Positions 18,301-34,170 of a DNA stretch of 46,393 nt are shown here, piece by piece (positions within the stretch are counted from its first letter, which is position 1; each line of letters starts with the position of its first letter). The translations under genes and the position numbers were made by a program. The notes under the pieces were generated by a model, which searched no databases, was not told the DNA's origin, and saw only the letters and a list, made by a program, of their open reading frames with translations. Source of the DNA: Deltaproteobacteria bacterium (GTDB lineage Bacteria; Desulfobacterota_D; UBA1144; Nemesobacterales; CSP1-2); NCBI GenBank assembly GCA_016187835.1, contig JACPIY010000026.1, positions 1 through 46,393 of the forward strand, written 5' to 3'.

Positions 18301-18319
18301 TATGCTCAATGTTCTCTCA

Positions 18320-18382
18320 GTAAAGGCAATGGAGTTCTGCCTTTAACCGCTGTCCCAGCCGGGGCAGTTGATGACTCCTGGT
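18320..18382 (+). promoter_or_regulatory. Fluoride riboswitch (crcB motif)
   Basis: The stem AAAGGCA/TGCCTTT encloses ATGGAGTTC. AACC and the stem GCTGTCCC-agcc-GGGGCAGT follow, and then TGATGACTCCT. The loop GGAGT can pair with ACTCC, forming the pseudoknot that defines the crcB fluoride aptamer. The conserved GATGACTCCT end is intact. Downstream, AAGGCTttttAGCCTT (about 18405-18420) is a hairpin that may belong to the expression platform; the mechanism is not clear. The antiporter gene begins at 18458 with GGAGG at about 18443. Confidence 0.92.
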
Positions 18383-18457
18383 TAAAAATCAAATCCTAAA
18401 GGAAAGGCTTTTTAGCCTTAAAGGGAATTTTTATATCTACTATGGAGGGAAGAAAGA

Positions 18458-19648
18458 ATGGATAACACTTACGTCGCCTTAATTATGGGACTTCTCATAC
18501 TTGTTGCAAGCTTTATTTCTGTTGAAGCTGCCATATCGGTGGCGATTATTGAAATCGCTATGGGTGTTATAGGAGGAAATTTTCTTGGTCTTCAGTCTAC
18601 GCCCTGGATTGATTTCCTTGCGGGTTTTGGAGGAATTCTTCTTACATTCCTGGCCGGAGCAGAAACAGACCCACAACTCATGAAAGAGAAGTTTAAAGAA
18701 AGCTTTCTTATCGGCGGGATTTCTTTCCTTGCCCCGTTTCTATTAACCTTTGCCTATTGCTACTGGGTAGCGGGATGGAGTTTCAAAGCGGCTGAGATTG
18801 CAGGAACCGCTCTTTCAACTACATCCCTTGCTGTAGTTTATGCGGTTCTAGTTGAAACTGGACTTACCGAAACAAAGATTGGAAAAATAATCATGGCATC
18901 TTGTTTTGTTACGGACTTTGGCACTGCACTGTTGCTTAGTCTGCTCTTTGCTGAAGAAAACTGGCTTACTCTGGTTTTTGTTTTCGGCTCTGTCGTGATA
19001 ATTTTCCTCTCGCCGAAGGTTATGTCTCCGATTCTCAAGAGGTATGGGAACAGAGTGATTGAGCCTGAGATAAAGTTCTTATTCTTTCTACTCTTTTTAT
19101 TTATGTATCTTGGTAAAATCGGGGCAAGTCATGCTGTACTTCCTGTGTTCATCCTTGGACTCGTGCTTTCAAATGCACTTCGCTCGAATAGAGATCTTCA
19201 AAGAAAGCTGAGAGTAATTGCTTTTGCCATGATAACTCCGTTTTTCTTCATAAAAGGGGGTATGAACGTTTCTCTTAAAGAGGTATATGCCAACTTTGGG
19301 ATCCTTCTGGTATTATTCGGAGTGAAAATGGGGGCAAAGGTTATTGGAGTATATCCAATTGCAAAGAAATATATTCCAAAGAGCGCTACTTACGCTACGC
19401 TTCTCATGAGTACCGGACTTACTTTTGGCACTATATCTTCCTTGTACGGACTCTCGGCAGGATTTATTAATGCTAGTCAATTTTCGGTACTAGTCACGGT
19501 AGTAATTCTCACGGCTATAGTGCCCACATTTATTGCTCAACGCTGGTTCCAGCCAAATTTAGTTGAGGAATCTCGAGTAAGTGTCGACCCTGTTAAAGAG
19601 CTTTCGGCGCTAAATGTGATTGAACAAAGGGAGGGAGAAAATGTTTAG
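18458..19648 (+). CDS. Cation:proton antiporter (KefB/CPA2 type)
   Basis: This 396-aa inner-membrane protein has about 12 hydrophobic helices and the Na+/H+ exchanger-like fold. Typical segments are FGGILLTFLAGAETDP (half-broken helix region with acidic residue) and AGTALSTTSLAVVYAVLVE. It ends after the membrane domain and lacks the RCK/TrkA-N nucleotide-binding domain of full Kef proteins. Antiporters of this kind are a known gene class behind fluoride riboswitches, where they are thought to counter fluoride or the accompanying ion imbalance. Its last 8 nt overlap uspA. The aptamer upstream shows likely induction by fluoride. Confidence 0.9.
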   Translation: MDNTYVALIMGLLILVASFISVEAAISVAIIEIAMGVIGGNFLGLQSTPWIDFLAGFGGILLTFLAGAETDPQLMKEKFKESFLIGGISFLAPFLLTFAYCYWVAGWSFKAAEIAGTALSTTSLAVVYAVLVETGLTETKIGKIIMASCFVTDFGTALLLSLLFAEENWLTLVFVFGSVVIIFLSPKVMSPILKRYGNRVIEPEIKFLFFLLFLFMYLGKIGASHAVLPVFILGLVLSNALRSNRDLQRKLRVIAFAMITPFFFIKGGMNVSLKEVYANFGILLVLFGVKMGAKVIGVYPIAKKYIPKSATYATLLMSTGLTFGTISSLYGLSAGFINASQFSVLVTVVILTAIVPTFIAQRWFQPNLVEESRVSVDPVKELSALNVIEQREGENV

Positions 19649-20069
19649 ATTTAATAAAATCCTTGTTGCAATTGATGGCTCAGAAGGAGCTAAAAAAGCA
19701 TTGCGTGTGGCGGTTGAACTTGCAAAACGCTTTGATGCAGAGATTCATTCAATATCTGTGGAGGAAGATTTGCCTCACTATGCAGCCACGGTGGGAGAAG
19801 TCGTAGAGGCTAAACATGAACGGAACGCTTACTTTGACAAAGTGAACCAGGAATCTGTTGAGTTTGCGGCAAAAGAAGGTGTTACTCTACGCACAAAAGT
19901 CGTTGCAGGACATGAGGTAGAAAAAACCGTTAATTACATTAACGAAAGAAAGTTTGATCTTCTGGTGATAGGTTTCATGGGACATTCAAAGGTATTTGGA
20001 AGAATATGGGGAAGCACATCACAAACCCTTACCCGTCTTGCTCCGTGTACTGTTATGGTGGTTAAGTGA
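19641..20069 (+). CDS. Universal stress protein (UspA family)
   Basis: This 142-aa cytosolic protein starts with the standard FNKILVAIDGSEGAKKAL. It ends with the nucleotide-binding loop region FDLLVIGFMGHSKVFGRIWGSTSQTLTRLAPCTVMVVK; G-hx-G-x9-GS-type residues are present, so ATP or AMP binding is plausible. I choose the ATG at 19641, which follows GGGAGGGAGAAA; the track's TTG at 19620 adds seven residues. It overlaps the antiporter stop by 8 nt and shares its fluoride riboswitch. UspA proteins are another class reported with fluoride riboswitches. Confidence 0.92.
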   Translation: MFRFNKILVAIDGSEGAKKALRVAVELAKRFDAEIHSISVEEDLPHYAATVGEVVEAKHERNAYFDKVNQESVEFAAKEGVTLRTKVVAGHEVEKTVNYINERKFDLLVIGFMGHSKVFGRIWGSTSQTLTRLAPCTVMVVK

Positions 20070-20108
20070 GTAAGCTCTAGTTAATACTTATCGCAGGAGT
20101 ATTCGAAA

Positions 20109-20387
20109 ATGAATATTAGAAGACTTGTGCTTGATGTGGACAAGGCCATTGCCCGACCTACGCTCTTAGATTTGGCCAAGGCCATCGAGAGTGTCACTGG
20201 TGTTGAAGGCGTGAACATCACGGTGATTGAAATTGATATTGAAACGATGGGTATGGATGTTACAGTGGAAGGAGAGAACATAGACTATCCGGCACTCGTC
20301 AAAGCCATCGAATCCACCGGCGCAGTGGTGCATAGCGTCGATCAGCTAGCTTTCGGCAGCCGATTGGTGGAGCGTGTGAAGATATAA
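20109..20387 (+). CDS. DUF211 family protein
   Basis: This 92-aa protein matches the DUF211 pattern (MNIRRLVLDVDKAIARPTLLDLAKAIESVTGVEGVNITVIEIDIET..., then VEGENIDYPALVKAIESTGAVVHSVDQL). The family forms a small ferredoxin-like alpha/beta domain and is common in archaea; its function is unknown. GCAGGAG lies upstream of the ATG. It precedes the VIT-like membrane gene by 2 nt and follows uspA by 39 nt, so it is the third gene of the fluoride-riboswitch operon. Base composition is richer in GC than antiporter and uspA, hinting at separate acquisition. Confidence 0.82.
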   Translation: MNIRRLVLDVDKAIARPTLLDLAKAIESVTGVEGVNITVIEIDIETMGMDVTVEGENIDYPALVKAIESTGAVVHSVDQLAFGSRLVERVKI

Positions 20388-20389
20388 CG

Positions 20390-20935
20390 ATGAATATATT
20401 CGGTCTATCGTTTCCACGTGAATACGTATTCGCCCTCGTTATTGGTCTTGTGGATGGAATTCTGACAGCTCTCACACTCGCCGGGGGCAAGGTAATAAAT
20501 TCTCGAGATTCGATTGACATCAAGCTGGTATTACGTATCTCGATGGCTACAGCACTCTCTGGGGCGTTTATTTTCTTTGTGGCAGAGTATGTCCGACTAC
20601 GTGGAGAATTGGTTCACGCGGAACGTCATCTCAATCTCACATCTCCAGGCCATCTCGCGACAACCCAGCTTGGAAGAATGGTCTTTCGCGACGCCCTGAG
20701 GGGAACAGCAATTTCTGGTGCTTTTAGCTTCCTTGGAGCACTGCTACCCCTGATGTCCGGCGCCGTGTTGCCAGGTCCGCACTGGCTGCCAATCGCCGTC
20801 GCCATTTTAGCTCTAGGTCTGCTCGGCGTCGGCCTAGCACGCGCCGTTTACGGGGATACGATTCGGTGGACAATAGCGCTGATAGCCGCTGGCATCTTGC
20901 TCACTATAGTTGGAGTAAAGCTTCACGTAATCTGA
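20390..20935 (+). CDS. VIT1/CCC1-like integral membrane protein
   Basis: This 181-aa protein has about five hydrophobic helices. It resembles the membrane part of VIT/CCC1 iron-manganese transporters (REYVFALVIGLVDGILTALTLAGG; FRDALRGTAISGAFSFLGALLPLM). It lacks the cytosolic metal-binding insertion of plant VIT1. It is tightly coupled to DUF211 (2-nt gap), a pairing I recall mainly from archaeal and thermophile genomes. Transport of a divalent metal is inference. It ends the operon controlled by the fluoride riboswitch at 18320. Confidence 0.7.
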   Translation: MNIFGLSFPREYVFALVIGLVDGILTALTLAGGKVINSRDSIDIKLVLRISMATALSGAFIFFVAEYVRLRGELVHAERHLNLTSPGHLATTQLGRMVFRDALRGTAISGAFSFLGALLPLMSGAVLPGPHWLPIAVAILALGLLGVGLARAVYGDTIRWTIALIAAGILLTIVGVKLHVI

Positions 20936-21201
20936 GAAAGCTTTAATTCTTAATCCTCTCCAACTCAATGAACCAAAATTAGATTTTCTTGCAATCGAGT
21001 TTATGGAGCTTTAAAGCATGTCTTTCCCGAACGTATTAAGCGGGAATCCATTATTTGATATTTTCATGGATGCCCGATAAAAGCATTCGGGTATGACAAA
21101 TCTAGAGTAGCCTTGAACCTGAAAACGGTCAGAACCAGCGCAAGATATAAGTAACGTGACTGACTAAATTAAAAATAGCCGGTATTTATCTGATATATTA
21201 T

Positions 21202-22140
21202 ATGATAGATGCTATGGCATTTTTGGATATTACTCTTCAAATTTTAAAAGAATTCTTTTCTTTGACTCTTGAGGTTATTCCATACTTTTTACTCGGGGCT
21301 GCTTTAGGTGCGGCTCTTCAAACTTACCTGAAGTCCGATTCAACCTTGAAATATCTTAGTCGAGGTAGCTCCTCGGTAATAAATGCGAGTATTCTTGGCG
21401 CTGTTCTTCCGGGTTGTTCCTGTGCAACAATGCCCATGGCGGAGGGACTTAAAAGGCAAGGAGCCGAATTAGGAACTGTAACAGCCTTCATCATGATGTC
21501 GCCCCTCTTAAGTCCCATCACGATAGCGATGACTTATGGAATGTTAGGCTGGAAAATCACAGTGGCAAGATTGGTATTTCCATTTATCGGCAGTATAGCT
21601 CTTGGTGTGATTTTAAACTATCTCGAAAAATCTAGGGTTTCTGGATTCAGTAACTCGGCCTCTAATTCTAAATTTCTGCAAGGCCTTCCTGTTAGAGGAA
21701 ATCTTGCATCATCTAATACCTGCTACACAGAGACAAAACAAAGCTTTTGGAGAAACTTAGTATCAATAATAAGAGGGCTTTTTAAATACTTTCTAGTAGG
21801 AATACTGGTTGCATCAGTTGTAACTACGATCATTCCCGAGGACTCGATTTCTAGGTACATCATCTTCTCAGGATTTGTAGCGTATTTAGTAGCTGCCGTA
21901 GTAGGGATACCGCTCTATGTTTGTGAGGGAGAAGAAGTTCCCTTAACGTTTGCACTTCTAAAAGCTGGATTAGGCGTTGGACCGGCTTTTACATTCCTCA
22001 TGGGTTCAGTAGGTACATGCGTACCGACTATGATTATGGCCCAGAAGATTATTGGTAAAAAGGCAACACTATTTTACATACTGAGCTGGTTTGTGTTTGC
22101 GATAGGTTCCGGATTATTGCTGAGTCTTATTGTCGGATAG
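21202..22140 (+). CDS. Permease of the ArsP/DUF318 (PF03773-type) family
   Basis: This 312-aa inner-membrane protein has two blocks of hydrophobic helices separated by a polar loop (about residues 145-180). The signature LPGCSCATMPMAEGLKRQGAELG is characteristic of this permease family, as is the C-terminal GVPLYVCEGEEVPLTFALLKAGLG repeat-like segment. Members export trivalent organoarsenicals or other metal(loid)s; here no arsenic genes are adjacent, so the substrate is open. No strong Shine-Dalgarno sequence is seen; an alternative ATG lies four codons in. Confidence 0.85.
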   Translation: MIDAMAFLDITLQILKEFFSLTLEVIPYFLLGAALGAALQTYLKSDSTLKYLSRGSSSVINASILGAVLPGCSCATMPMAEGLKRQGAELGTVTAFIMMSPLLSPITIAMTYGMLGWKITVARLVFPFIGSIALGVILNYLEKSRVSGFSNSASNSKFLQGLPVRGNLASSNTCYTETKQSFWRNLVSIIRGLFKYFLVGILVASVVTTIIPEDSISRYIIFSGFVAYLVAAVVGIPLYVCEGEEVPLTFALLKAGLGVGPAFTFLMGSVGTCVPTMIMAQKIIGKKATLFYILSWFVFAIGSGLLLSLIVG

Positions 22141-22512
22141 AAAAGAACTTCACATAAACAAAACGGCCTTTCTTTTTTGCCTCTTTACAAATAGTGGAAA
22201 CCTACTCTTGGCAAAATTTCTATCTATGGCAAAATATCTATCCCTAATATGGCTTTTTATCCATAGGATAAATTAATCTTCACTTGATTCTGACTCTGTT
22301 GACAAGCCTCACTGGGGTTCTTGAAAAATTAAGGAATGAGTCGAAATGGGTTTCTGAGATTGTTGAAGTAGTAATCTTTATTTTTTAATCGCAAGTATTG
22401 ATATTGTCCATTTTGAGAATTAAAAATACAGAATTTAGGAAAACAACTACCGGAATTAGAATCCTATTTTGAACAATTTATTTGTGTTCATAGTTCCTTG
22501 CTTTGCAATATC
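22141..22512. other. Intergenic region, no recognised gene
   Basis: This stretch between the permease stop and the attC-like site contains no ORF with protein-like features, no tRNA and no clear terminator. It may be the junction of the acquired MFS cassette. Confidence 0.4.
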
Positions 22513-22571
22513 GGCTAACGCGTGTTGGCGAAGTGCCAAAGGCATTTGGGTAAGCAAATCCGCCGTTAGGC
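22513..22571 (-). other. attC-like integron recombination site
   Basis: On the minus strand, 9 nt after the MFS stop, lies GCCTAAC (R''-like, 22565-22571) followed by GGCGGATTTGC. GCACTTCGCC and GTTAGCC (R'-like, 22513-22519) follow. GGCGGATTTGC and the complement of GCACTTCGCC pair except for one extra G, the layout of attC L boxes. Length is 59 bp, within the short attC range. The position directly after a gene's stop is what a cassette predicts. Confidence 0.5.
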
Positions 22572-22580
22572 AATAAGATA

Positions 22581-23763
22581 TCATCCGGGCCCTTTTCGGA
22601 CTAACAGGAGCATGGGAATAGAGGCAAGTTGCATCACCACCGAGAATACAATTAGAGAGGTAATAGAGGTATCATAAAGAACACCCATTAATGCACTGCC
22701 TAAAAACCAAAATACCCCATACCCCAGGTTGAAAGTCCCATACGCAGTGCCGCGCTTATCTGCAGGAACCATCTCTGCAACGGCGGCTCTCATAATGGAC
22801 TCCTGCGCCCCCATGCCTATACCAATCAAAGCCGCCTAGGAATACCAGAGGGGCAAAAAGCGATGATAGAAGAGAAACGACAATCAGAATAGAAATACCT
22901 ATTCGGTCGAATAGACGTCCAAAGAAAAGGGCCGCAAGAGCATCAACACCCATAGCAATAGCATAAAAGATTGGAATCCAGTTATCAGATGCAACAGAGA
23001 CCTTTTTGAAATGATAGGCAATCAGTGGAAAATCGGCATACCCTGCCGCAATCAAAGCTACGGCAACCAGATAGAGCCAGAATACTCGTGGAAACACTTT
23101 GCCTTCCAATTTGACCGAGACTGCTTCCAAATCTCGAGGACGGGGATAAAGGAGTCGTGCTGCCAAAAGGACACCTAGTGCTAAGAGTGCCGGCACTAGC
23201 AGGATACCGAAACTTGTCTGATAACCACCCCTGAAATAGAGAACTGAAGAGATTATAAGCGGGCCAAGCACCGCGCCTATTTGATCCATAGCTTCATGCA
23301 ACCCAAATCCCCAGCCTCGTCCAATCTCCTTAGTAGCATGTGAAAGCATTGCGTCACGAGCAGGGGTGCGAATCGCTTTTCCTAGTCGCTCTGTAATCAT
23401 GAGAAAAGCAGCGATTTCCCAGCGTCCCGCCAGCGCCAATAGAGGAACTGCCAGCATATTCACTGCGTATCCTAAAATCGTTATTGTCCAATATTGACCA
23501 GTTCGGTCGCTAATGTATCCAGAAATAAGACGAAGACCATAACCGATCAACTCTCCAAACCCTGCGACGACCCCCACCGTAGTTGCACTTGCCCCAAGGA
23601 CAGCAAGATAGGGACCAGTAATACTGCGAGCCCCTTCGTATGTCATATCTGCAAAGAGACTTACTACACCCAATAAAACAACGAATTTCAGAGCAGATCT
23701 TTTTAAAATACTATTATTCTGTTCTGGAGGCATTGACTGGTGTTCCATAAATGCTCTCTCCAC
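22581..23763 (-). pseudogene. Major facilitator superfamily transporter, frameshifted
   Basis: ORFs 22756..23763 and 22581..22829 are two frames of a single 12-helix MFS transporter of about 390 aa. The first covers helices 1 to about 9 (FADMTYEGARSITGPYLAVLGA; SGYISDRTGQYW, the A-like motif). The second covers the rest (ESIMRAAVAEMVPADKRGTAYG). The shift is near 22838-22846: dropping one base in CTAGGCGGCTTTG joins FLG to AALIGIGMGAQES. Both halves are otherwise well conserved, so a recent mutation or assembly error is likely. Substrate is unknown. An attC-like site follows its stop. Confidence 0.75.
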
Positions 23764-23990
23764 CCCTCAGCTTCGCTGAGTACCACTTAATCAAGGGAGC
23801 TTCACGAAAGGATTAATAAATGCGCCCTTGACAAGCTGGGCGGATGGTATTTGAATCAAACCGTTCGTGGTGAGCTTGTCGAACCATGAACGGTGATTGT
23901 GCGTAAATCCAGTTAACAAAAATTTATTCATATGATGTATTGGCACGACAGCAAGAAAAAAGAGTCTGATCTTATCGAAATCTTTCAGTC
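23764..23990. repeat. Short intergenic region with CGTTCGTGGTGAGC repeat
   Basis: CCGTTCGTGGTGAGCTTGTCGAACCATGAACGG (about 23864-23896) is an inverted-repeat unit of the dispersed repeat class. CTCAGCTTCGCTGAG (about 23766-23780) is a perfect short hairpin. The region follows the last gene of the large minus-strand operon and may contain its transcription end. Confidence 0.6.
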
Positions 23991-25754
23991 CTACTTTGAA
24001 AGCTCTCTCTCTAACTTGCCTAAGCTCCCCCTAATTCGCTTTAACACATCAGTCTGCTCCTTTATGTTTTTCTTAGCATAAGTAACCTTTTCCTCTCCTG
24101 ATCCAATTTCTAAAATAGCCCTTTCAAGGGCGGATTCAATTCCCGTTAAGGTTGCATTAATCTTGGAAAACAGTTCATCACGAAAATTTCCAAGGCTTTT
24201 TTCTATACGCTCTAGAAAATCATATCTAATCCTTCCGGCATTCTTATCTAGCTCTTCCCTACACTGCTCAAGCATCCTCTTAAGTGCCATCCTTCGGAAT
24301 AAAAACCCGGGCAGAGCAAAGGGTAGGATTTCAAGAGCAAGGGTAGTGTCGAAGAGAGACCCTATCCTGTATTGAAAATAAGTCTCTTCTGCGAGAGTCT
24401 CTACGCTGCTTAGGGTTTCTACTTTAATGTCAAAAATATCTGAGGATAGTTTCTTAATGTAGGCTATTATATCATTGGCTTTAGAGGAAAAACGTCTTGA
24501 AACATTTTCAAATCCCTGCCTTAATTTATCTTCTTCGTGTGTACGCCACTCGTTGAAGATACTTTCAACCTCTCGTCTCATTGCTCTGTCTATTGCTTTT
24601 GTCAGTTCAGTTTTGCCTTTGTCTTTGTGATTTTTATAGTGCTCTTCCATCTTTTTTGTAAGCTCTGGAACCTTTGCTTCTACAAAATTTTTTAAATCGG
24701 ATTCCAGGATTGAAATAAGTTTTTCCTTTTCTCCTCTCAACAGATATTCGAAGTCCTGTTTAGCCTGACTGATTTTTTCTTTTTGAATATTAAACTCGTT
24801 TATCTTCTTTTTAAGTTCTTCTAATGGTATAGAGATGGCTTTCATCTCAAGCTCTATGGACATCATTTCATCTGAGAGGATTTTAAGGGTGTTATTTAGC
24901 GCAGAGCTAAGAACGGCTTTGCCTTTTTCCTTCATAAGAAAATCATTTAGAGCTTTTTCAACATCCGAAATTAAACTACCATCCATTTTTTCCTGATTAT
25001 TGTTTAATCTTGCCTCCAAAGCTACCTTTGCGGATATGGGAAAGATTTTTATGTCTTTTAGACTAGCCTTTTCTTCAATCACTCCCTTTGTGAACTCCAG
25101 CGACTCGGCTCTGTCCTTTTCATCCATCTGGTCAATCTTGTTTTGCAGGAAAAAGATTTTATTTACGTGTTTCCTTATGTCATTCAGGAAGTTGTATTCA
25201 ACTTGACTAATTGGCGGGTCTACGCCTACTAAAAACACTGCAGCATCTACTTTAGATAGATAGTTATAGGTAACATCAGTGTTGTGCTCATAGGTGGAGC
25301 CGATTCCGGGAGTATCTATAATCTGAACTCCGTCTCTCAAATAAGGGGAATCATAATGAACCTCTGCATACTGCACCCCTTTTTGGTTTTCCGGATTTCC
25401 CCTCTCTGTCACGTAATCGGGAAGTTGCTCTAGCGTTATCTCTTTTCTAACACCGTTCTTGAATAAGACTTCTATCTTCAGATTATTTCCGTACTTAATC
25501 ATCGTAATAATAGATGTGAGAGGAACAACAGCCGTAGGAAGTAATCGGCTCCCAAGCAGGGCATTAATAAGAGTGGTTTTTCCTCGCTTAAATTGCCCAA
25601 GAACGGCTAGATTAAAATGGCCATCCAACAGTTTCGCTATAAGTTCTTGAGTGGCTTTTGCAGCGCTTTCATCCTTACGATGAGAAATTAGTTGGTGTAA
25701 ATCCTCCAGGCTCTCTAACAGACAATTTCTTGCTTCTACATAGGACTCCAACAT
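23991..25754 (-). CDS. Dynamin-family GTPase
   Basis: This 587-aa bacterial dynamin-like protein has G1 GQFKRGKT (53-60), the switch region with VVPLTSIIT (about 77-85), G3 DTPGIG (147-152) and G4 NKID (205-208). Long helices typical of the stalk follow (about 300-450). A hydrophobic patch near 470-490 (LALEILPFALPGFLF) may be a membrane-insertion paddle. Such proteins bind and remodel membranes, often in pairs; only one is seen here. It is the last gene of the 13-gene operon under a fluoride riboswitch, 12 nt after the phosphoesterase gene. A link between a dynamin and fluoride response would be new to me. Confidence 0.92.
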   Translation of the reverse strand: MLESYVEARNCLLESLEDLHQLISHRKDESAAKATQELIAKLLDGHFNLAVLGQFKRGKTTLINALLGSRLLPTAVVPLTSIITMIKYGNNLKIEVLFKNGVRKEITLEQLPDYVTERGNPENQKGVQYAEVHYDSPYLRDGVQIIDTPGIGSTYEHNTDVTYNYLSKVDAAVFLVGVDPPISQVEYNFLNDIRKHVNKIFFLQNKIDQMDEKDRAESLEFTKGVIEEKASLKDIKIFPISAKVALEARLNNNQEKMDGSLISDVEKALNDFLMKEKGKAVLSSALNNTLKILSDEMMSIELEMKAISIPLEELKKKINEFNIQKEKISQAKQDFEYLLRGEKEKLISILESDLKNFVEAKVPELTKKMEEHYKNHKDKGKTELTKAIDRAMRREVESIFNEWRTHEEDKLRQGFENVSRRFSSKANDIIAYIKKLSSDIFDIKVETLSSVETLAEETYFQYRIGSLFDTTLALEILPFALPGFLFRRMALKRMLEQCREELDKNAGRIRYDFLERIEKSLGNFRDELFSKINATLTGIESALERAILEIGSGEEKVTYAKKNIKEQTDVLKRIRGSLGKLERELSK

Positions 25755-25766
25755 AGAACAAATCTC

Positions 25767-26474
25767 CTATAACGAATCTCTCAAATGCCCGTATTCTAAA
25801 ACAGTTACTAAATTGCTTTTGATATGAGTATCGAGCGGAGTCGAAAGGATTTTCTCTATTGTCTTATTTATATCGTAGGCGACTCTCTTTATTTCCACCT
25901 CGCCATCATTCCATACGGCATAAGACGCCACTGCCGGAACGTCTTTTGACTGCCCAACACTACCGGGATTGATAACTGTTGTTTTCCCTATTTTCTTAAT
26001 CATGGAAATATGGGTATGACCAAGAAGCACAAAATCGGCATCTATTCCTTCTAGCTCTTCCTGCCAAACATAATCAGGTGAATCCGGGGGCAGATATTTA
26101 AAAAGGTTATCAGTTGGTGTTGCATGCACAAGGAGGAAACTAACTCTCCCAAGTTCCAGCACCATATTTGAAGGAAGAGAACCCAGATAAAATGTCTCTT
26201 CATTTCCAAGTATTTCCCACATAAGCTCTCTTGACTTTACGGACATCTGCCTGAAAGCATTACTGCATTTGCAGTCTACCCTGAAGGCCACGGCGTTATC
26301 GTGATTTCCGCGTACAACGGCATGAGCATTCTTTTTTATGAAATCTATGCACTCCATTGGACTCGGACCGTAATCAACCAAATCTCCCAAGCAGAGAAGG
26401 AAATCATACTCCTCCTTTATAGCCTCTAGTGCCTCGATATTCGCGTGTATATCTGAAAGGATTAGAATCCTCAT
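25767..26474 (-). CDS. Calcineurin-like metallophosphoesterase (YfcE/MJ0936 type)
   Basis: This 235-aa protein has the dimetal motifs ILSDIHANIEAL (D8, H10), LGDLVDYGPSP, VRGNHDNAV, LVHATPT and LLGHTHISM, all intact. Such enzymes hydrolyse phosphodiesters or phosphomonoesters; the substrate is unknown. Near the C-terminus, KILSTPLDTHIKSN is encoded by a copy of the dispersed repeat (GATATGAGTATCGAGCGGAGTCGAAAGGA, 25821-25849), inserted in frame. It sits between the second DUF6062-like gene and the dynamin gene in the operon. Confidence 0.9.
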   Translation of the reverse strand: MRILILSDIHANIEALEAIKEEYDFLLCLGDLVDYGPSPMECIDFIKKNAHAVVRGNHDNAVAFRVDCKCSNAFRQMSVKSRELMWEILGNEETFYLGSLPSNMVLELGRVSFLLVHATPTDNLFKYLPPDSPDYVWQEELEGIDADFVLLGHTHISMIKKIGKTTVINPGSVGQSKDVPAVASYAVWNDGEVEIKRVAYDINKTIEKILSTPLDTHIKSNLVTVLEYGHLRDSL

Positions 26475-26512
26475 AGAAATATCCTCCGTTTATTAGTCGC
26501 TAATCCAAATTT

Positions 26513-27205
26513 CTATAACTCCTTGCCTGCAAAGAATCCCATAGCTTTAATCCAAGCTTTCTCCTTCTCCACTTCGTAAGGTTGCTCAGCTAGAGTGCTT
26601 GAACATTTTTCAAGGTCAACGCTTAATCTGTTTAACTCCCTCAACTGTTTTTCAATAAGAGTGAGACCTACGTTAGGAGGTGCGAAGTGCAAAGCCTGGT
26701 CAAAGTGATTCATACATAATCCAGATGAGCCGAAGTAAAGTTCTTTAATCTCTGTATCCTCAAGATATTTGACCAACTGCTGAATCCACAAGGTTGACGT
26801 ACTTGATATTTGGCCGCAAATCGGACAAATGTTGGATGGTTTGATTTCCTCTCTAGTATCTTTGTATCCTTGAGAAGCTATCTTTTCTAACTTCCTAAGT
26901 GTGTCTTTAACTAGATAGCGATACAGAAAGGACATTTGATCTCCCTTTTTCATCTCTGCTATATTCCAAGCGTGTTTACTACAAAAACCGTTAGATTTTA
27001 ATACTCTCTTTATCCAGGGTAGCTCTCCGTAATGGTTATAAAAGAACCACCAGTAAAATTTCTCCAACTCCTCTTCACAAAATGAGCAAACTGGGCAATC
27101 GCCTTGCTTTCGTAGCATATGTGCCAAAGTGCCTTTAAAGTATTTTCCTGAGCTCTGACTTCGATTTTGCCAAAAGAGTTTTCTAAGTAGTGTCCAAACT
27201 TCCAT
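26513..27205 (-). CDS. DUF6062-like Cys-rich protein, copy 2
   Basis: This 230-aa paralogue of the preceding operon gene is of unknown function. Four conserved Cys/His blocks are visible: GDCPVCSFCEEELEKFYWW, NGFCSKHAW, ICPICGQIS and GLCMNHFDQAL. This duplicated CPxC ... C-x2-H arrangement looks like two metal sites. The protein has no signal peptide and is probably cytosolic. It ends KAWIKAMGFFAGKEL, nearly the same tail as its partner (TAWIRAIKFFVGKEL), which shows a tandem duplication. The family name is recalled from pattern and should be checked by profile search. Confidence 0.75.
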   Translation of the reverse strand: MEVWTLLRKLFWQNRSQSSGKYFKGTLAHMLRKQGDCPVCSFCEEELEKFYWWFFYNHYGELPWIKRVLKSNGFCSKHAWNIAEMKKGDQMSFLYRYLVKDTLRKLEKIASQGYKDTREEIKPSNICPICGQISSTSTLWIQQLVKYLEDTEIKELYFGSSGLCMNHFDQALHFAPPNVGLTLIEKQLRELNRLSVDLEKCSSTLAEQPYEVEKEKAWIKAMGFFAGKEL

Positions 27206-27219
27206 TTTGTTGCGATCTA

Positions 27220-27933
27220 CTAAAGTTCTTTACCGACAAAAAATTTAATAGCCCTGATCCAAGCCGTTTGTTCTTCACCCTTTGGTTCGTGTGCGTAGCG
27301 ATAATCCCGCTTGCGCGAGTACTCTTCTAAATCGCTGTTTATTTTTCTAAGCACTTCGGTTTGCTTTTGGATCAATGTTTCTACTGCTTCGGGGGGTGCA
27401 GATTCAAGGGCTAGGTTAAAGTGGTTCATACACAACCCGTAAGAGTCAAGATAAAGCTCCTTGATTTCTTGATCTTTTAAATCCATAAGCAGGTTTTCAA
27501 TCCATGTAGTAGTTCTTTCGGAGATAGACTTGCAAATTGGGCAAACTTCGATTGGCTGAAGCTGTTTCTTAATCTCTTTTAGGTGTTTATTATTTATTAC
27601 TTTCCTAATCCTACTTTTATTAAGCTCAAGTTTCTTAAGCTCTTCAGATACTCTCTCCAATTTCACAATTGTAGATTTGACCAGGTACTCATATACCAGA
27701 GACATTTCATGGTCCTTTCCTTTACGAATTAAATCCCAAGAATGTTTACTGCAAAACCCCATGGAATCTAGGATCTTAGCTATCCAGGTCGTGTCGTTGT
27801 AGTATTCGTTAAAATACCAGCGATAGAAGTATTCTAGGTCTTCCTTGCAGAGCAGGCACACGGGGCAATCCTCAACATTTCTCAGGGCTTCGATTAAGGA
27901 GGGTGATTTGTTGAATAAGGCAAGTGTTACCAT
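27220..27933 (-). CDS. DUF6062-like Cys-rich protein, copy 1
   Basis: This 237-aa protein is a close relative of the next gene downstream. It has EDCPVCLLCKEDLEYFYRW, MGFCSKHSW, VCPICKSIS and GLCMNHFNLAL, giving the same two predicted metal-binding clusters. A lysine-rich stretch (about residues 95-120) between the halves is longer than in copy 2. It follows the ribbon-helix-helix/coiled-coil gene by 6 nt and precedes its twin by 14 nt. Function is unknown; conservation of both copies in one operon suggests a heteromeric or staged role. Confidence 0.75.
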   Translation of the reverse strand: MVTLALFNKSPSLIEALRNVEDCPVCLLCKEDLEYFYRWYFNEYYNDTTWIAKILDSMGFCSKHSWDLIRKGKDHEMSLVYEYLVKSTIVKLERVSEELKKLELNKSRIRKVINNKHLKEIKKQLQPIEVCPICKSISERTTTWIENLLMDLKDQEIKELYLDSYGLCMNHFNLALESAPPEAVETLIQKQTEVLRKINSDLEEYSRKRDYRYAHEPKGEEQTAWIRAIKFFVGKEL

Positions 27934-27939
27934 GGAAAT

Positions 27940-28395
27940 TTAATTCCCGCTCAGTCTTTGTTTAAGAATATATTTCCTCACAATCTTTGTATCCACTATC
28001 TCTTCTTGTTGGTTATAATCAACTAGAATCTTGAGGGCACTTTTAAAGCTTTTATTCAATGCTTTTGCGCCTGTCAATTTTATTGAAATGGTTTTATTGT
28101 CAGAAAAGAGTTCAAAGTACTCATACCTTAGAGCGGCATTCCTGCTGGAGAGCCTTCTGTAGTCAGGGATCATCCTTGCTAGCTCTAAATCCAGGTCTTT
28201 TTTTCTGCTAACGAGTTCAGATAGTTCTTTTTCCATCTCGTCTAGGTTATAAACTCCATCAACTCCAAATGTGATAGCCCAACCCAGTATTTCTTCTTTA
28301 GTCCAATCTATTTTGGGTGCTATTTGCTTTAGGTCAGCATAAAGCTCTAAGGGAAGTGATACTGAAATCTTCTTATTTTTATACCCTATTGCCAT
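27940..28395 (-). CDS. Ribbon-helix-helix-like protein with coiled coil, B
   Basis: This 151-aa protein has an N-terminal strand-helix-helix (KKISVSLPLELYADLKQIAPKI..., residues 8-45) resembling Arc/CopG DNA-binding domains. A heptad-like region (DEMEKELSELVSRKKDLDLELARM) follows, then a globular tail. It begins directly after the stop of the similar gene upstream with no gap. It could be an autoregulator of the operon or a structural coiled-coil partner. No recognition of a named family. Confidence 0.6.
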   Translation of the reverse strand: MAIGYKNKKISVSLPLELYADLKQIAPKIDWTKEEILGWAITFGVDGVYNLDEMEKELSELVSRKKDLDLELARMIPDYRRLSSRNAALRYEYFELFSDNKTISIKLTGAKALNKSFKSALKILVDYNQQEEIVDTKIVRKYILKQRLSGN

Positions 28396-30056
<1,661 letters not shown>

Positions 30057-30093
30057 TTAAGCCTCCTAACTTTCTTCAAAAAGTCATACCAAT

Positions 30094-30546
30094 CTACTCT
30101 CTGGATTCACTTACTTTAGCTTCTATTCTTAAGCTTATTTCAATAAGCTCCTTCACCTTAGGGTCCCATAGGTCAGCAAGCTCTTTTGGTGTTTTACCGT
30201 ATCTATCCAGTTCGCCACTTACCATGTCGCAGAGCGCCTCCCAGATATGTGCAGCTTCTGCCCGCACATTCCTCGCTATTGATTCTTCTCTTGGTTTAAG
30301 ATTAAGCTCATCTTTTAATTCTCTTATGATCTTTCGCATTTTTTCAACATCTTGAAGCACTGAATTTCGAACCTTGTCACCCGGTTGATCATTTACCCTA
30401 TAGGTTATTTTCTCCCTATCCTGAACAATTAATAGCCGCTCAATTAGCTCAATGGACTTTTCTAGCATGTATAAACCCGCTGTTATAACTCTCTGATGGT
30501 ATTGATTAATCTCCATATTATCTACCAGGGGATCAGGCGTTATCAA
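30094..30546 (-). CDS. Helical protein, paralogue A (unknown family)
   Basis: This 150-aa, almost all-helical protein is of unknown function. It shares a pattern with the gene at 32627..33076: MEINQYHQRV/MEISRNHKTR, then IRELKDELNLKPREES/INHIVQELNLERRREE, IWEAL.../VNLEE..., and YGKTPKELADLWDPKVKELIEIS/YGEVPDELREFIDPRVDEIMSLV. The start is a TTG at 30546 preceded by AAGGAATAGTTA; an ATG lies 30 nt downstream. It lies between DUF47 and eno. Confidence 0.7.
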   Translation of the reverse strand: MITPDPLVDNMEINQYHQRVITAGLYMLEKSIELIERLLIVQDREKITYRVNDQPGDKVRNSVLQDVEKMRKIIRELKDELNLKPREESIARNVRAEAAHIWEALCDMVSGELDRYGKTPKELADLWDPKVKELIEISLRIEAKVSESRE

Positions 30547-30558
30547 TAACTATTCCTT

Positions 30559-31158
30559 CTAAGACGTTTTTGCCACATCTTCACAGCGGTCAATCGCCTC
30601 TTCGAGTGTTTCGTAGATGTCCTTCCATTTGATTATCTCAACCGGGTCAGAAGCTGAATTAAATAAATCGGAAAGTGCCTTCCTATAGGTTCTATCTGCT
30701 TCGTTCTCAAGCCGATTGGTTTCGATACAGATGTCGAAGATCAAACTATGCTCCTTCAAATTCCTGAGCCCATTTACACCTTTTGTCACCTGTTCTACAG
30801 CTCTCCCAAGTATATCAGTTAAAGCTATAGCCTCGGGGATCGCTGTCTTTATTTTGTAAAAGAAGACTCTCTCGCAGACAGAGTCAATAAGGTCAAGGAC
30901 ATCATCTATCTTTGTTATAAGAGCATAAATGGATTCACGGTCAATCGGGGTAACAAATGTTTTATGCAGACTGGATACGGTTTCATGTGTTATATGGTCG
31001 GCTTCGTGTTCAACATATTTTATCTGCCTGGCTTTCTCATCAACATTTGATAAATCCTGCATCATCTCCTCAAGGAGCCCTATTCCACGAAGCATCTTCT
31101 CGGATGCCCCATCAAAGTAGTCAAAAAATTTTTCTTCTTTAGGCAAAAATCTAAACAT
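30559..31158 (-). CDS. DUF47 / PhoU-like protein (Pit accessory type)
   Basis: This 199-aa helical-bundle protein matches the DUF47 pattern. It has FRFLPKEEKFFDYFDGASEKM at the N-terminus, YVEHEADHITHETVSSLHKTFVTPIDRESIYALITKIDDVLDLID in the middle, and ETNRLENEADRTYRKALSDLF near the C-terminus. The acidic EHEAD and ENEAD motifs are the predicted metal-cluster ligands of PhoU-like proteins. DUF47 genes usually sit beside a Pit phosphate transporter; none is present here. In this operon it follows the HEAT gene and precedes helical paralogue A. Confidence 0.88.
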   Translation of the reverse strand: MFRFLPKEEKFFDYFDGASEKMLRGIGLLEEMMQDLSNVDEKARQIKYVEHEADHITHETVSSLHKTFVTPIDRESIYALITKIDDVLDLIDSVCERVFFYKIKTAIPEAIALTDILGRAVEQVTKGVNGLRNLKEHSLIFDICIETNRLENEADRTYRKALSDLFNSASDPVEIIKWKDIYETLEEAIDRCEDVAKTS

Positions 31159-31171
31159 AAGGTCTCCTTTT

Positions 31172-32134
31172 TCACTCTTTGTCTTTGGATTTTTGTAATA
31201 TTCCCTCTAAATACTCAATGGCTTTCTCCGAGAGAAGTATTCTCTCTCCTTTACCATTCTCTATTGCCTTCTCACTGAGAGCGTTCTCAATATATGGTAA
31301 AGCTGCCGAATTAAGTTCGAGTAGAGCATCAATACACAAGATAAGGGTATACCAATCACTCTCATTTAATCCGGCTATGAGTTCTGGGATAACTTTTACG
31401 ATTTCATCTTTATTAGCGCCAATTTCTAATAGAGCCAAAGCCGAAGACAACCTAACTTCCCATTCTTCGTCTTCGAGTCTTTTAAGAAGCGGTCGGATAG
31501 CTCTGGGATCACCAATTTCCCCTAATAGTCTAGCGGCCTCAGCCCGTCTTTTTACACTCAGATTTTTTTCATCTTTGAAGGAAGTGCATTTTTTTCTGAC
31601 CAATGTTTCTATAAGTAGTATAACAACATCTTTGTCAAATTGAAGCAATGCTTTACTCGCAGTCTCTCCTGCATAGTCATCTTCGAGCAGTTCGATTATA
31701 TAGGGTATAGCTCTCTTTTCTCTGAAAGTTGCAAGAGCCTCGGCTGCGTCTCTTAAATGATTCTCTTTTAGACACTTAAGTAGCGGTTCTATTGCCCTCT
31801 CATCGCCTAATATTCCAAGCTGCCTGGCGGCTTGATTTCTCACGGTTTCTTCAGCAAAGCGAACCTGAGGGTCGAGTAAGTCGAGGTCGCACAAATCCAG
31901 CACCTCTATAAGTCCCTGAACAGTCTCTTCACCGCCGATCATTCCGAGGGCTTCGGCCGCCAGGCAGCGTGGTTCCGAGAAAAGGGATGGAGGAGAAAGC
32001 AAAAAACTAACAAGCGGCTTTACCGCTATCTTTCCGTATTTAATTAATTCGAGCAACACACTCATATTATTCCCAAGGTTATTAAGACCCTCTACCAGTT
32101 TTTCTATTTCTTTTTCCCGATAGATTTTAGCCAT
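31172..32134 (-). CDS. HEAT-repeat (PBS lyase-type) scaffold protein
   Basis: This 320-aa solenoid protein has repeated units such as EALGMIGGEETVQGLIEVL, RQLGILGDERAIEPLLKCL, EALATFREKRAIPYIIELL and RLLGEIGDPRAIRPLLKRL. These are short HEAT/PBS-lyase repeats running through most of the chain. No catalytic residues are seen; such solenoids act as protein-binding platforms. It overlaps the preceding zinc-ribbon/HEAT gene by 8 nt and is 13 nt from DUF47. In context it may scaffold the operon's other products. Confidence 0.85.
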   Translation of the reverse strand: MAKIYREKEIEKLVEGLNNLGNNMSVLLELIKYGKIAVKPLVSFLLSPPSLFSEPRCLAAEALGMIGGEETVQGLIEVLDLCDLDLLDPQVRFAEETVRNQAARQLGILGDERAIEPLLKCLKENHLRDAAEALATFREKRAIPYIIELLEDDYAGETASKALLQFDKDVVILLIETLVRKKCTSFKDEKNLSVKRRAEAARLLGEIGDPRAIRPLLKRLEDEEWEVRLSSALALLEIGANKDEIVKVIPELIAGLNESDWYTLILCIDALLELNSAALPYIENALSEKAIENGKGERILLSEKAIEYLEGILQKSKDKE

Positions 32135-32630
32135 TACACCGACGCCTCTCTAATACAGCGGTTAGTTTATCCAGGGAAACACTAGCAGATTCTCTGACAT
32201 AATTACTGCAATCCCTAGTTGCTCTTTTTAAAGCCTCTATAACTTCGTCTTGCCCACTAAAATTACTAAGAACGGTTGCGGCTTTACCTCTTACCAGGAA
32301 TGAACGACTGTTTAGCATCTTAATTAAAAACGGCACTGCCCTCTCGCCTCCGATTTTACCAAGGGCTTCAGCAATTTCCTCTATGAGAAAGTAATCATTA
32401 GTTTTGCTGAGCAAATCAATAAGCGGCTTTATAGCTACTCGCTCACGTCTCTCACCCAGGATGTAGCAGGCTCTATATACAGTAGATGGCTCGAAATGAT
32501 TCAAAGAATGTAAGAGTTTCTCGGTGTAGCTTTTCTCATCCCACTCTTTTATGTTTCTGCCGCAGTGTGGACAGTCATTTTCATCCTTTGAAACCTCAGC
32601 CCAGCAAAATGGACAGAAATGGTGAATCAT
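32127..32630 (-). CDS. Zinc-ribbon plus HEAT-repeat protein
   Basis: This 167-aa protein starts with a zinc ribbon (HFCPFCWAEVSKDENDCPHCG, two CPxC pairs). HEAT repeats follow (YILGERRERVAIKPLIDLL; EALGKIGGERAVPFLIKML; TVLSNFSGQDEVIEALKRA). Its start overlaps the upstream helical gene by 4 nt and its end overlaps the longer HEAT gene by 8 nt, showing coupled translation. It probably acts as an adaptor with the 320-aa HEAT protein; binding partners are not known. Confidence 0.8.
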   Translation of the reverse strand: MIHHFCPFCWAEVSKDENDCPHCGRNIKEWDEKSYTEKLLHSLNHFEPSTVYRACYILGERRERVAIKPLIDLLSKTNDYFLIEEIAEALGKIGGERAVPFLIKMLNSRSFLVRGKAATVLSNFSGQDEVIEALKRATRDCSNYVRESASVSLDKLTAVLERRRCNG

Positions 32631-33076
32631 AGCTTTTCTCCTTGTATTTCTCTATTTTTATATTTTGAACTGGCAATCTTACAAATTTCATTAACCAGAC
32701 TCATTATTTCATCTACCCGCGGGTCTATAAATTCCCGGAGTTCATCTGGGACTTCTCCATAACCACGAAGCCTTTTTGATTTTATCTCCTCCAGATTTAC
32801 CCACTGAATAGTCATAGAACCTAGTATTCGGCTTTTCGTCTCTTCTCTTCGTCTCTCCAAGTTCAGTTCTTGAACTATATGGTTTATCAACTCTTTTATA
32901 CTCTCTATGCGTTTTAGAATTAAGACCTTTTCCCAGGAAGAGAGATTATCTACGGTTTCGGTCATGATTTTTCTCCGATTAGTACTCTTTATAATCTTCT
33001 CCACGTCGGAGATCGTATCCTCAAGAACCTGCATAGATACGGCAAGACGTGTCTTATGGTTTCGTGATATTTCCAT
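32627..33076 (-). CDS. Helical protein, paralogue B (unknown family)
   Basis: This 149-aa all-helical protein is a paralogue of 30094..30546 by shared motif order (see that entry). The ATG follows AAAAAGGAACAGAC. It is the second gene of the operon if the 88-codon ORF upstream is real, otherwise the first. No enzymatic signature or membrane segment is seen. Confidence 0.7.
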   Translation of the reverse strand: MEISRNHKTRLAVSMQVLEDTISDVEKIIKSTNRRKIMTETVDNLSSWEKVLILKRIESIKELINHIVQELNLERRREETKSRILGSMTIQWVNLEEIKSKRLRGYGEVPDELREFIDPRVDEIMSLVNEICKIASSKYKNREIQGEKL

Positions 33077-33204
33077 GTCTGTTCCTTTTTATGAATCTAC
33101 GTTTTTTCTTTATTGTGGGCTTCGTGTCCATTCATGATTATCTTCCCTGCCTCTTGTAACCAAAGGTTTTTTCCCAAGGGGTAAATCAATGAGATTTTTT
33201 CTTT

Positions 33205-33471
33205 TCATATTTTAGTAACCTCATTAAATGTAGAATAGGATTTGAGCAGCAAAGAATGGTTTTTCCTTAGCTCAAGGCTGACTAGAGGACTTCTTTGTGC
33301 TAGAGGCACTCTGGGTGTGGGTTTGGAATTAACAGTTAGCCTCTTAGGTTTAGATAAGGGCTTTTTATAAATAAATCCCTCTCCGTAGAAGACATTACGT
33401 AATACGTACCTTATCTTTTTCCACACGAAAAAAGATCTTGCACTATTCAGGGCATTGTTTGGGTGAGTCAT
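33205..33471 (-). CDS. Small basic protein at the head of the operon
   Basis: This 88-aa Lys/Arg-rich ORF (MTHPNNALNSARSFFVWKKIRYVL...) begins after GAGGTAGGAG and lies between the fluoride aptamer and the first clear operon gene. It has no recognised family and its C-terminal half is low-complexity and Pro/Ser-rich. It could be a real small protein, a leader ORF or chance; the ribosome site and location give modest support. The 128-nt gap after it contains a fragment of the GACACGAAG repeat. Confidence 0.4.
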   Translation of the reverse strand: MTHPNNALNSARSFFVWKKIRYVLRNVFYGEGFIYKKPLSKPKRLTVNSKPTPRVPLAQRSPLVSLELRKNHSLLLKSYSTFNEVTKI

Positions 33472-33539
33472 CTCCTACCTCTAAACTCATCTTGAAGGCA
33501 TTTCGATAAGACAAATTAGCCTCCGTCGGAATTTATTCT

Positions 33540-33599
33540 GGTAGGAGTTATTAACTGCCCCGGTCGGGTCAGTAATTAGAGGTGAACTCCATCACCTTA
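33540..33599 (-). promoter_or_regulatory. Fluoride riboswitch (crcB motif), second copy
   Basis: The minus strand reads AAGGTGATGGAGTTCACC, a stem GGTGA/TCACC with loop TGGAGT. The stem ACTGACCC-gacc-GGGGCAGT and then TTAATAACTCCTACC follow. Loop GGAGT pairs with ACTCC as the crcB pseudoknot. ATGGAGTTC, CCGGGGCAGTT and ACTCCT are shared with the aptamer at 18320, while the first stem differs but stays paired (GGCA/TGCC versus GGTGA/TCACC), a covariation that argues for RNA function. TGATGAC is TAATAAC here, a departure from consensus. It directs the enolase/dynamin operon. Confidence 0.82.
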
Positions 33600-33602
33600 A
33601 CT

Positions 33603-33630
33603 AATATATACAACCCGCTCGTATTGTCAA
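33603..33630 (-). promoter_or_regulatory. Sigma-70-type promoter of the enolase/dynamin operon
   Basis: On the minus strand TTGACA (33625-33630), a 16-bp spacer and TATATT (33603-33608) would start transcription at the first bases of the fluoride aptamer. The form is identical to the promoter before the first fluoride riboswitch. Confidence 0.8.
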
Positions 33631-33711
33631 TTTTTGGCGGGTTCTAAATTTTACTTGACCTCATTGACTTTTTTTTATAATATATGATTCCAAGGAGAAT
33701 AGGGGAACAGA

Positions 33712-34170
33712 TTGCTTAAAGTAGATTACGAAGAGCTATATAGACAAATTTCAGAGATATTTAACCTGCAGAAAGGTTGTGTTTTTATGTGTGAAGTTGA
33801 TAAGCATGCCAATCTTTTGGAATTTACCTATCCACCTAAGCTAATAAAAAACAAAGTCCCTATAGATAATAAAACCATCGTGGGGAGAGCGGTTATTGCC
33901 AAGCGTTCTTATATATCAAATAATGTCGAGAAAGAAAGCAACTTTGCTGTGCTTAATTGCCTTATGGCAATGGGGGCTGCCCCTGTTCAGAAGATGATCA
34001 CTTATCCAATCTTATCCGGCGACAAGGTAAGGGCTGTTCTTCAAGTCGCGAGAAGGGGAAAAACTCTTTCCGAGTCCCCGGATTTTCAGAAAGATGACCT
34101 AGGAAAGATAAAATCAATTCTCGATGATTTGCTCTCTCTTCATATTGTCAAATCCGCTTGGGGAGAGTAG
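33712..34170 (+). CDS. GAF-domain protein
   Basis: This 152-aa single-domain cytosolic protein has a GAF-like pattern (LYRQISEIFNLQKGCVFMCEVD; VPIDNKTIVGRAVIAKRSYISNNV; PVQKMITYPILSGDKVRAVLQVARR). There is no output domain; ligand unknown. It begins with TTG at 33712 following GGGGAACAGA. TTGACC and TATAAT-like boxes about 40 nt upstream could form a promoter. It is 2 nt from the start of the inositol-phosphatase gene, so the two are probably an operon. Confidence 0.8.
   Translation: MLKVDYEELYRQISEIFNLQKGCVFMCEVDKHANLLEFTYPPKLIKNKVPIDNKTIVGRAVIAKRSYISNNVEKESNFAVLNCLMAMGAAPVQKMITYPILSGDKVRAVLQVARRGKTLSESPDFQKDDLGKIKSILDDLLSLHIVKSAWGE

Follow-up and report, generated by a model that had tools for sequence, protein, structure and literature searches.

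Fluoride riboswitches of the crcB class (Rfam family RF01734) have a core that reads U38 G39 A40 U41 G42 A43 C44 in the numbering of the Thermotoga petrophila structure, which is adopted here. Two long-range pairs, A6-U38 and A40-U48, are taken from the literature, where A40-U48 is the linchpin; the archetypal Bacillus cereus switch carries A39 (PMC8752731). At pseudoknot position 1, base 42 has as its partner the U that ends the P1 loop, a U17-G42 wobble in B. cereus (PMC11077080); the same pair is U12-G39 in the numbering of PMC8004769. In PMC11077080, this pair (13/42) is the main tuning position, with the strongest influence on switching among the published mutants; its C-G form in B. cereus is leaky, with 75% antitermination in the absence of fluoride, and a U-A form is not among the pair variants described in the section considered. 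Standard fluoride-response genes are crcB, CLC and antiporter genes, and enolase and pyrophosphatase are known as fluoride-inhibited enzymes (PMC11139923). In the FRM operon of Enterobacter cloacae (ppaC-uspA-eno-gpmA-crcB), a fluoride riboswitch precedes the genes for both of these enzymes (PMC5533749).

The window (the whole stretch of DNA analysed, 46,393 nucleotides) was searched with cmscan and contains two RF01734 aptamers. Both exceed 34 bits, the gathering score of the family, from which we count membership. The aptamer treated here lies on the minus strand at 33605..33535 and matches model positions 1–64, the full length, with 46.1 bits (E 9.6e-10). The original prediction of a second fluoride aptamer at 33540–33599 is thus borne out, and by the covariance-model check that it had proposed. 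The partner (18316..18387, plus strand, 45.5 bits) has a TGATGAC core and heads a convergent Na+/H+ exchanger–Usp operon. A search of the genome to which the window belongs found no RF01734 aptamers beyond these two.

Stem P1 is AGGUG/CACCU (33597–33593/33584–33580) and closes an eight-nucleotide loop, AUGGAGUU, as read from the sequence and the Rfam alignment. The 5′ arm of the pseudoknot is GGAGUU (G8–U13, 33585..33590) and its 3′ arm AACUCC (A42–C47, 33544..33549), with the pairing assigned according to PMC11077080 and PMC8004769 and, for the 3′ arm, from the 13/42 pairing across the family. Both P1 and the pseudoknot are fully complementary, as is P3 (ACUG/CAGU), and the bases of the long-range pairs are all kept (A6 at 33592, U38 at 33553, A40 at 33551, U48 at 33543). 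A first stem that retains its pairing had been proposed, which holds for P1, in the register GGTGA/TCACC, which is one pair off: its extra A-U pair would use A6 and U13, the partners of U38 and base 42. Likewise, the loop and pseudoknot letters GGAGUU and ACUCC are common to both aptamers of the window as had been stated, but the pairing is not, U13-G42 at 18316 being U13-A42 here (U13 at 33585, A42 at 33549).

The core does read TAATAAC in place of TGATGAC (U38 A39 A40 U41 A42 A43 C44; 33553..33547), as originally noted, but it is not unusual. In a sample of 59 independently sampled RF01734 matches above the cut-off, from genomes of several groups, 13 have A39, 12 have A42 and five have both; genomes at the centre of the search were left out of this sample because they had been found through an A42 pattern. 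Given U13 as its partner, the change G42→A turns a U-G wobble into a Watson–Crick U-A pair, and the 59 sequences follow this rule: A42 stands opposite U13 in all 12 cases and opposite C13 in none of 14 (Fisher p 0.023). A pattern scan of the genome collection gave at least 118 stretches that match an A42-aptamer pattern, and the exact TAATAAC occurs in a 58.6-bit match of the Bacteroidota group ahead of crcB. The orthologous loci in two genomes of the window's phylum, G003 and G005, already have TGATAAC, which indicates that A42 is inherited and A39 a local addition. The change G39→A is tolerated variation. We considered a compensatory exchange of C22-G39 for U22-A39, which fits this locus, but only 30 of 56 sequences have a standard pair at these positions, so that it is not a required one. 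Judged by the sequence comparison, the core changes are natural variation common in the class, one of them making a proper base pair, and the element is a genuine fluoride riboswitch, presumably binding fluoride and ordinary as a sensor.

A sigma-70-type promoter, TTGACA (33630–33625) and TATATT (33608–33603) with a 16-nucleotide spacer and 11 of 12 consensus matches, occupies 33603..33630 on the minus strand. It ends at about the 5′ end of the aptamer, so that the transcript probably starts there. An intrinsic terminator was rejected as the expression platform; the sole terminator-like site in 33000–33800 lies on the plus strand (33035–33054). Sixty-one bases beyond the core, the sequence GGUAGGAG (33479–33472, minus strand) is the exact complement of CUCCUACC (33540..33547, minus strand), and the two form an 8-bp helix in the minimum-energy fold. 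GGUAGGAG lies immediately 5′ of an AUG (33471–33469) and overlaps a Shine–Dalgarno-like GAGGU (33481–33477) followed by the five-base spacer AGGAG (33469..33481 in all), an element present also in the G003 and G005 orthologues. In G005 the helix is one pair longer (9 bp), while in G003 it again has 8 bp, one of them a G-U; its outer pair varies between C-G (G005) and U-A (G003). Minimum-energy folds of all three loci include it, with z-scores of −3.2, −4.1 and −4.3, values obtained with programs without a pseudoknot model on orthologous loci that are related to each other. After mononucleotide shuffling, GGUAGGAG was present in 24 of 20,000 stretches of 100 bases. A different platform is predicted for the 18316 switch, where CUCC pairs with GGAG upstream of the antiporter AUG with a weak z-score of −1.1.

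CUCCUACC overlaps four pseudoknot bases (C44–C47) and the linchpin base U48, leaving A42 and A43 free; this could be the reason that variation is tolerated at position 42. Without fluoride, CUCCUACC would pair with GGUAGGAG and mask part of the Shine–Dalgarno site and the spacer, leaving the first open reading frame untranslated. With Mg2+ and fluoride, CUCC would be held in the pseudoknot and U48 would pair with A40; the start site would be freed and the operon expressed through translational coupling. As the OFF helix does not include the U13-A42 pair, this pair would be expected to stabilize the ON state slightly without blocking the switch. Translational control is the likely mechanism as far as the predicted folds indicate, and to the complete reading, a crcB-class fluoride riboswitch that combines a naturally occurring variant of one pseudoknot pair with a translational OFF-helix platform, we assign a probability of roughly 0.85.

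The covered AUG opens a possible 88-residue leader reading frame from the list of open reading frames (33205..33471, minus strand, as are all genes of this operon). It is weakly similar to a 77-residue frame in G003 (global score 4 against 0 for the best shuffled sequence), and with conservation this weak the first translated product is uncertain. Its stop overlaps the start of a pyrophosphatase remnant as ATGA, and the overlap is identical in G003. The remnant (33097..33208) consists of the N-terminal MKRKNLIDLPLGKKP and, in another frame, the C-terminal IIMNGHEAHNKEKT, with the middle missing. At its place the orthologous operon of G003 has an intact gene for a pyrophosphatase of 180 residues; blastn of the window against G003 gave no match for the remnant, the resemblance being at the protein level only. 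An intact pyrophosphatase gene is present elsewhere in the window's genome.

A 128-base gap follows, and from there to the dynamin-like GTPase gene the gaps are at most 40 bases. The genes encode a 149-residue protein without Pfam family (32627..33076), a zinc-ribbon and HEAT-repeat protein (32127..32630, PF13646), a HEAT-repeat protein (31172..32134, PF13646 and PF03130), a PhoU_div (DUF47) protein (30559..31158, PF01865, 104.7 bits), a 150-residue protein that resembles the 149-residue one and also has no Pfam family (30094..30546), enolase (28770..30053, TIGR01060 with 693.7 bits, PF00113), two small proteins of 125 and 151 residues without any family above cut-off (27940..28773), two DUF6062 proteins (26513..27933, PF19538), a calcineurin-like phosphoesterase (25767..26474, PF12850) and the dynamin-like GTPase (23991..25754, PF00350 with 96.5 bits), for which the nearest solved structure is the bacterial dynamin-like protein 2j68.

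The two riboswitch operons are convergent, and some 15 kb of fluoride-response region (18316–33605) is enclosed by their switches; contig C134 of G003 has the same layout of two facing operons. Within this region of the window, an MFS transporter gene (22581–23763, minus strand) is read in two overlapping frames where G003 has a single frame of 409 residues, the result of either a frameshift or an assembly error. No crcB gene was found in the window's genome, which is 94% complete; a CLC gene on another contig is read in two frames.

The altered specificity that had been suggested for this core would find some support in the fact that two positions differ which the Rfam consensus gives as strongly conserved. 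We would expect a changed ligand to come with changed pocket bases and a distinct gene association. The bases A6, U38, A40 and U48 are unchanged, A39 and A42 are each frequent in the family, and the gene contexts point to fluoride. Among the loci fetched, at least 24 distinct aptamers from many phyla have the exact TAATAAC. Those whose following genes were scanned precede, among others, genes for crcB (L099, L227), CLC (L029), Na+/H+ exchangers (L068, L079, L106), DUF190, dynamin-like GTPases (L024, L036, L058), DUF6062, an MFS protein, a metallophosphoesterase and a HEAT protein; for a few of the 24, the next gene is uninformative or seemingly unrelated. The operon of the window itself has fluoride-response genes, enolase and the remnant of a pyrophosphatase that is intact in the G003 orthologue. 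Recognition of a ligand other than fluoride is thus very unlikely, and the RNA itself is a new case of a known riboswitch class. Decay of the aptamer into a non-functional element, like that of the pyrophosphatase gene downstream, is somewhat less improbable: of the gene that once opened the operon only a remnant is left, and the MFS gene next to the operon is in two frames. Still, we consider it improbable, as the aptamer scores above the 18316 copy, has a strong promoter, keeps P1, P3 and the pseudoknot paired and the OFF helix conserved, shares A42 with its orthologues and is followed by intact enolase and dynamin genes.

A small tuning of affinity or set-point by G42→A, a change at the main tuning pair of the published work, is possible. 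As the C-G form is leaky in B. cereus, the U-A pair may narrow the dynamic range of the 33605..33535 switch. A rival reading would have the double change shift the threshold, U13-A42 stabilizing the docked state so that less fluoride suffices for induction, or basal expression is higher, than in the operon at 18316. The sensitivity of pair 13/42 and the 75% antitermination of the C-G form (PMC11077080) speak in its favour, as does the fact that it is precisely this pair that distinguishes the two switches of the genome. The published effect, however, concerns C-G, and in terminators that compete for all six pseudoknot pairs, whereas the OFF helix here begins at C44 and spares positions 42 and 43; we therefore regard a shifted threshold as rather unlikely. 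With two natural switches, U-G and U-A at pseudoknot position 1, this one genome offers a ready test of the pair as a setter of the fluoride threshold. What seems to be a mutated core is a base-pair substitution found across the class, and recognizing it as such guards against naming a new ligand class.

The operon context is more interesting than the sensor RNA, since in several bacterial groups that are unrelated to each other a dynamin-like gene adjoins fluoride switches. For a count of Dynamin_N loci we took 47 genomes that have fluoride riboswitches (43 of the sampled ones and four of the window's own family) and merged split matches by hand. Of the resulting 28 loci, one of which is that of the window, 22 have a fluoride aptamer within 10 kb (about 0.34 expected from genome size), and 20 have one at most 10 kb upstream of them on the same strand (about 0.09 expected). 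Several of the 47 genomes are close relatives, so that the calculated probabilities (4e-38 and 3e-45) make the association look stronger than it is. The pattern is seen in relatives of Moorella, in Nitrospirota, in Acidobacteriota, in the Bacteroidota sample and in the window's phylum. In the Moorella group (L030, L141, L160 and neighbours), some genomes have three to six fluoride aptamers (G070, G086, G090, G093); several of these are clustered in about 10 kb, and some have the cores TAATAGC or TGATAGC.

At three loci (L031:1709-3877, L042:1268-3334, L013:1810-4068), dynamin-like GTPases carry the 149/150-residue domain at their N-terminus, and this gene fusion suggests that the two act together. 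Similarly, a DUF6062 protein (L033:4737-5798) has a C-terminal part that resembles the 151-residue protein of the window, which suggests that DUF6062 and proteins of this type cooperate. A reading as anti-phage defence was rejected: apart from LeoA/LeoBC (dynamin-like), PADLOC has nothing but weak matches, and the genes in question are found behind fluoride switches. Tentatively, and at slightly less than even odds, we propose that the switch commands a little-described fluoride-response module of a dynamin-like GTPase and its partners (the 149/150-residue domain, DUF6062), which might protect the membrane or GTP metabolism in a genome in which crcB was not found. In the literature searched, no paper joins 'fluoride riboswitch' with 'dynamin' and none mentions DUF6062; the search did not cover the original gene lists of the class, and priority is not established. 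If confirmed, the recurrent downstream dynamin-like GTPase would be a part of fluoride resistance absent from that literature.

The aptamer thus shares with RF01734 and the B. cereus crcB riboswitch P1, P3, the six-pair pseudoknot and the A40-U48 linchpin bases, and with B. cereus also A39. It differs from the latter in the first pseudoknot pair, U-A instead of U-G, and in its platform, predicted to be translational here and a terminator there. The T. petrophila aptamer (4ENC) has the same fold positions and likewise a Watson–Crick pair at pseudoknot position 1; this pair is C-G there and U-A here, G39 is replaced by A39, and the pseudoknot of the window is richer in AU. Like the FRM operon of E. 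cloacae, the operon of the window places pyrophosphatase and enolase behind a fluoride riboswitch. In contrast to that operon, it has no crcB and only a remnant of the pyrophosphatase gene, and it carries additional genes for HEAT-repeat, PhoU_div and DUF6062 proteins, a phosphoesterase and the dynamin-like GTPase.
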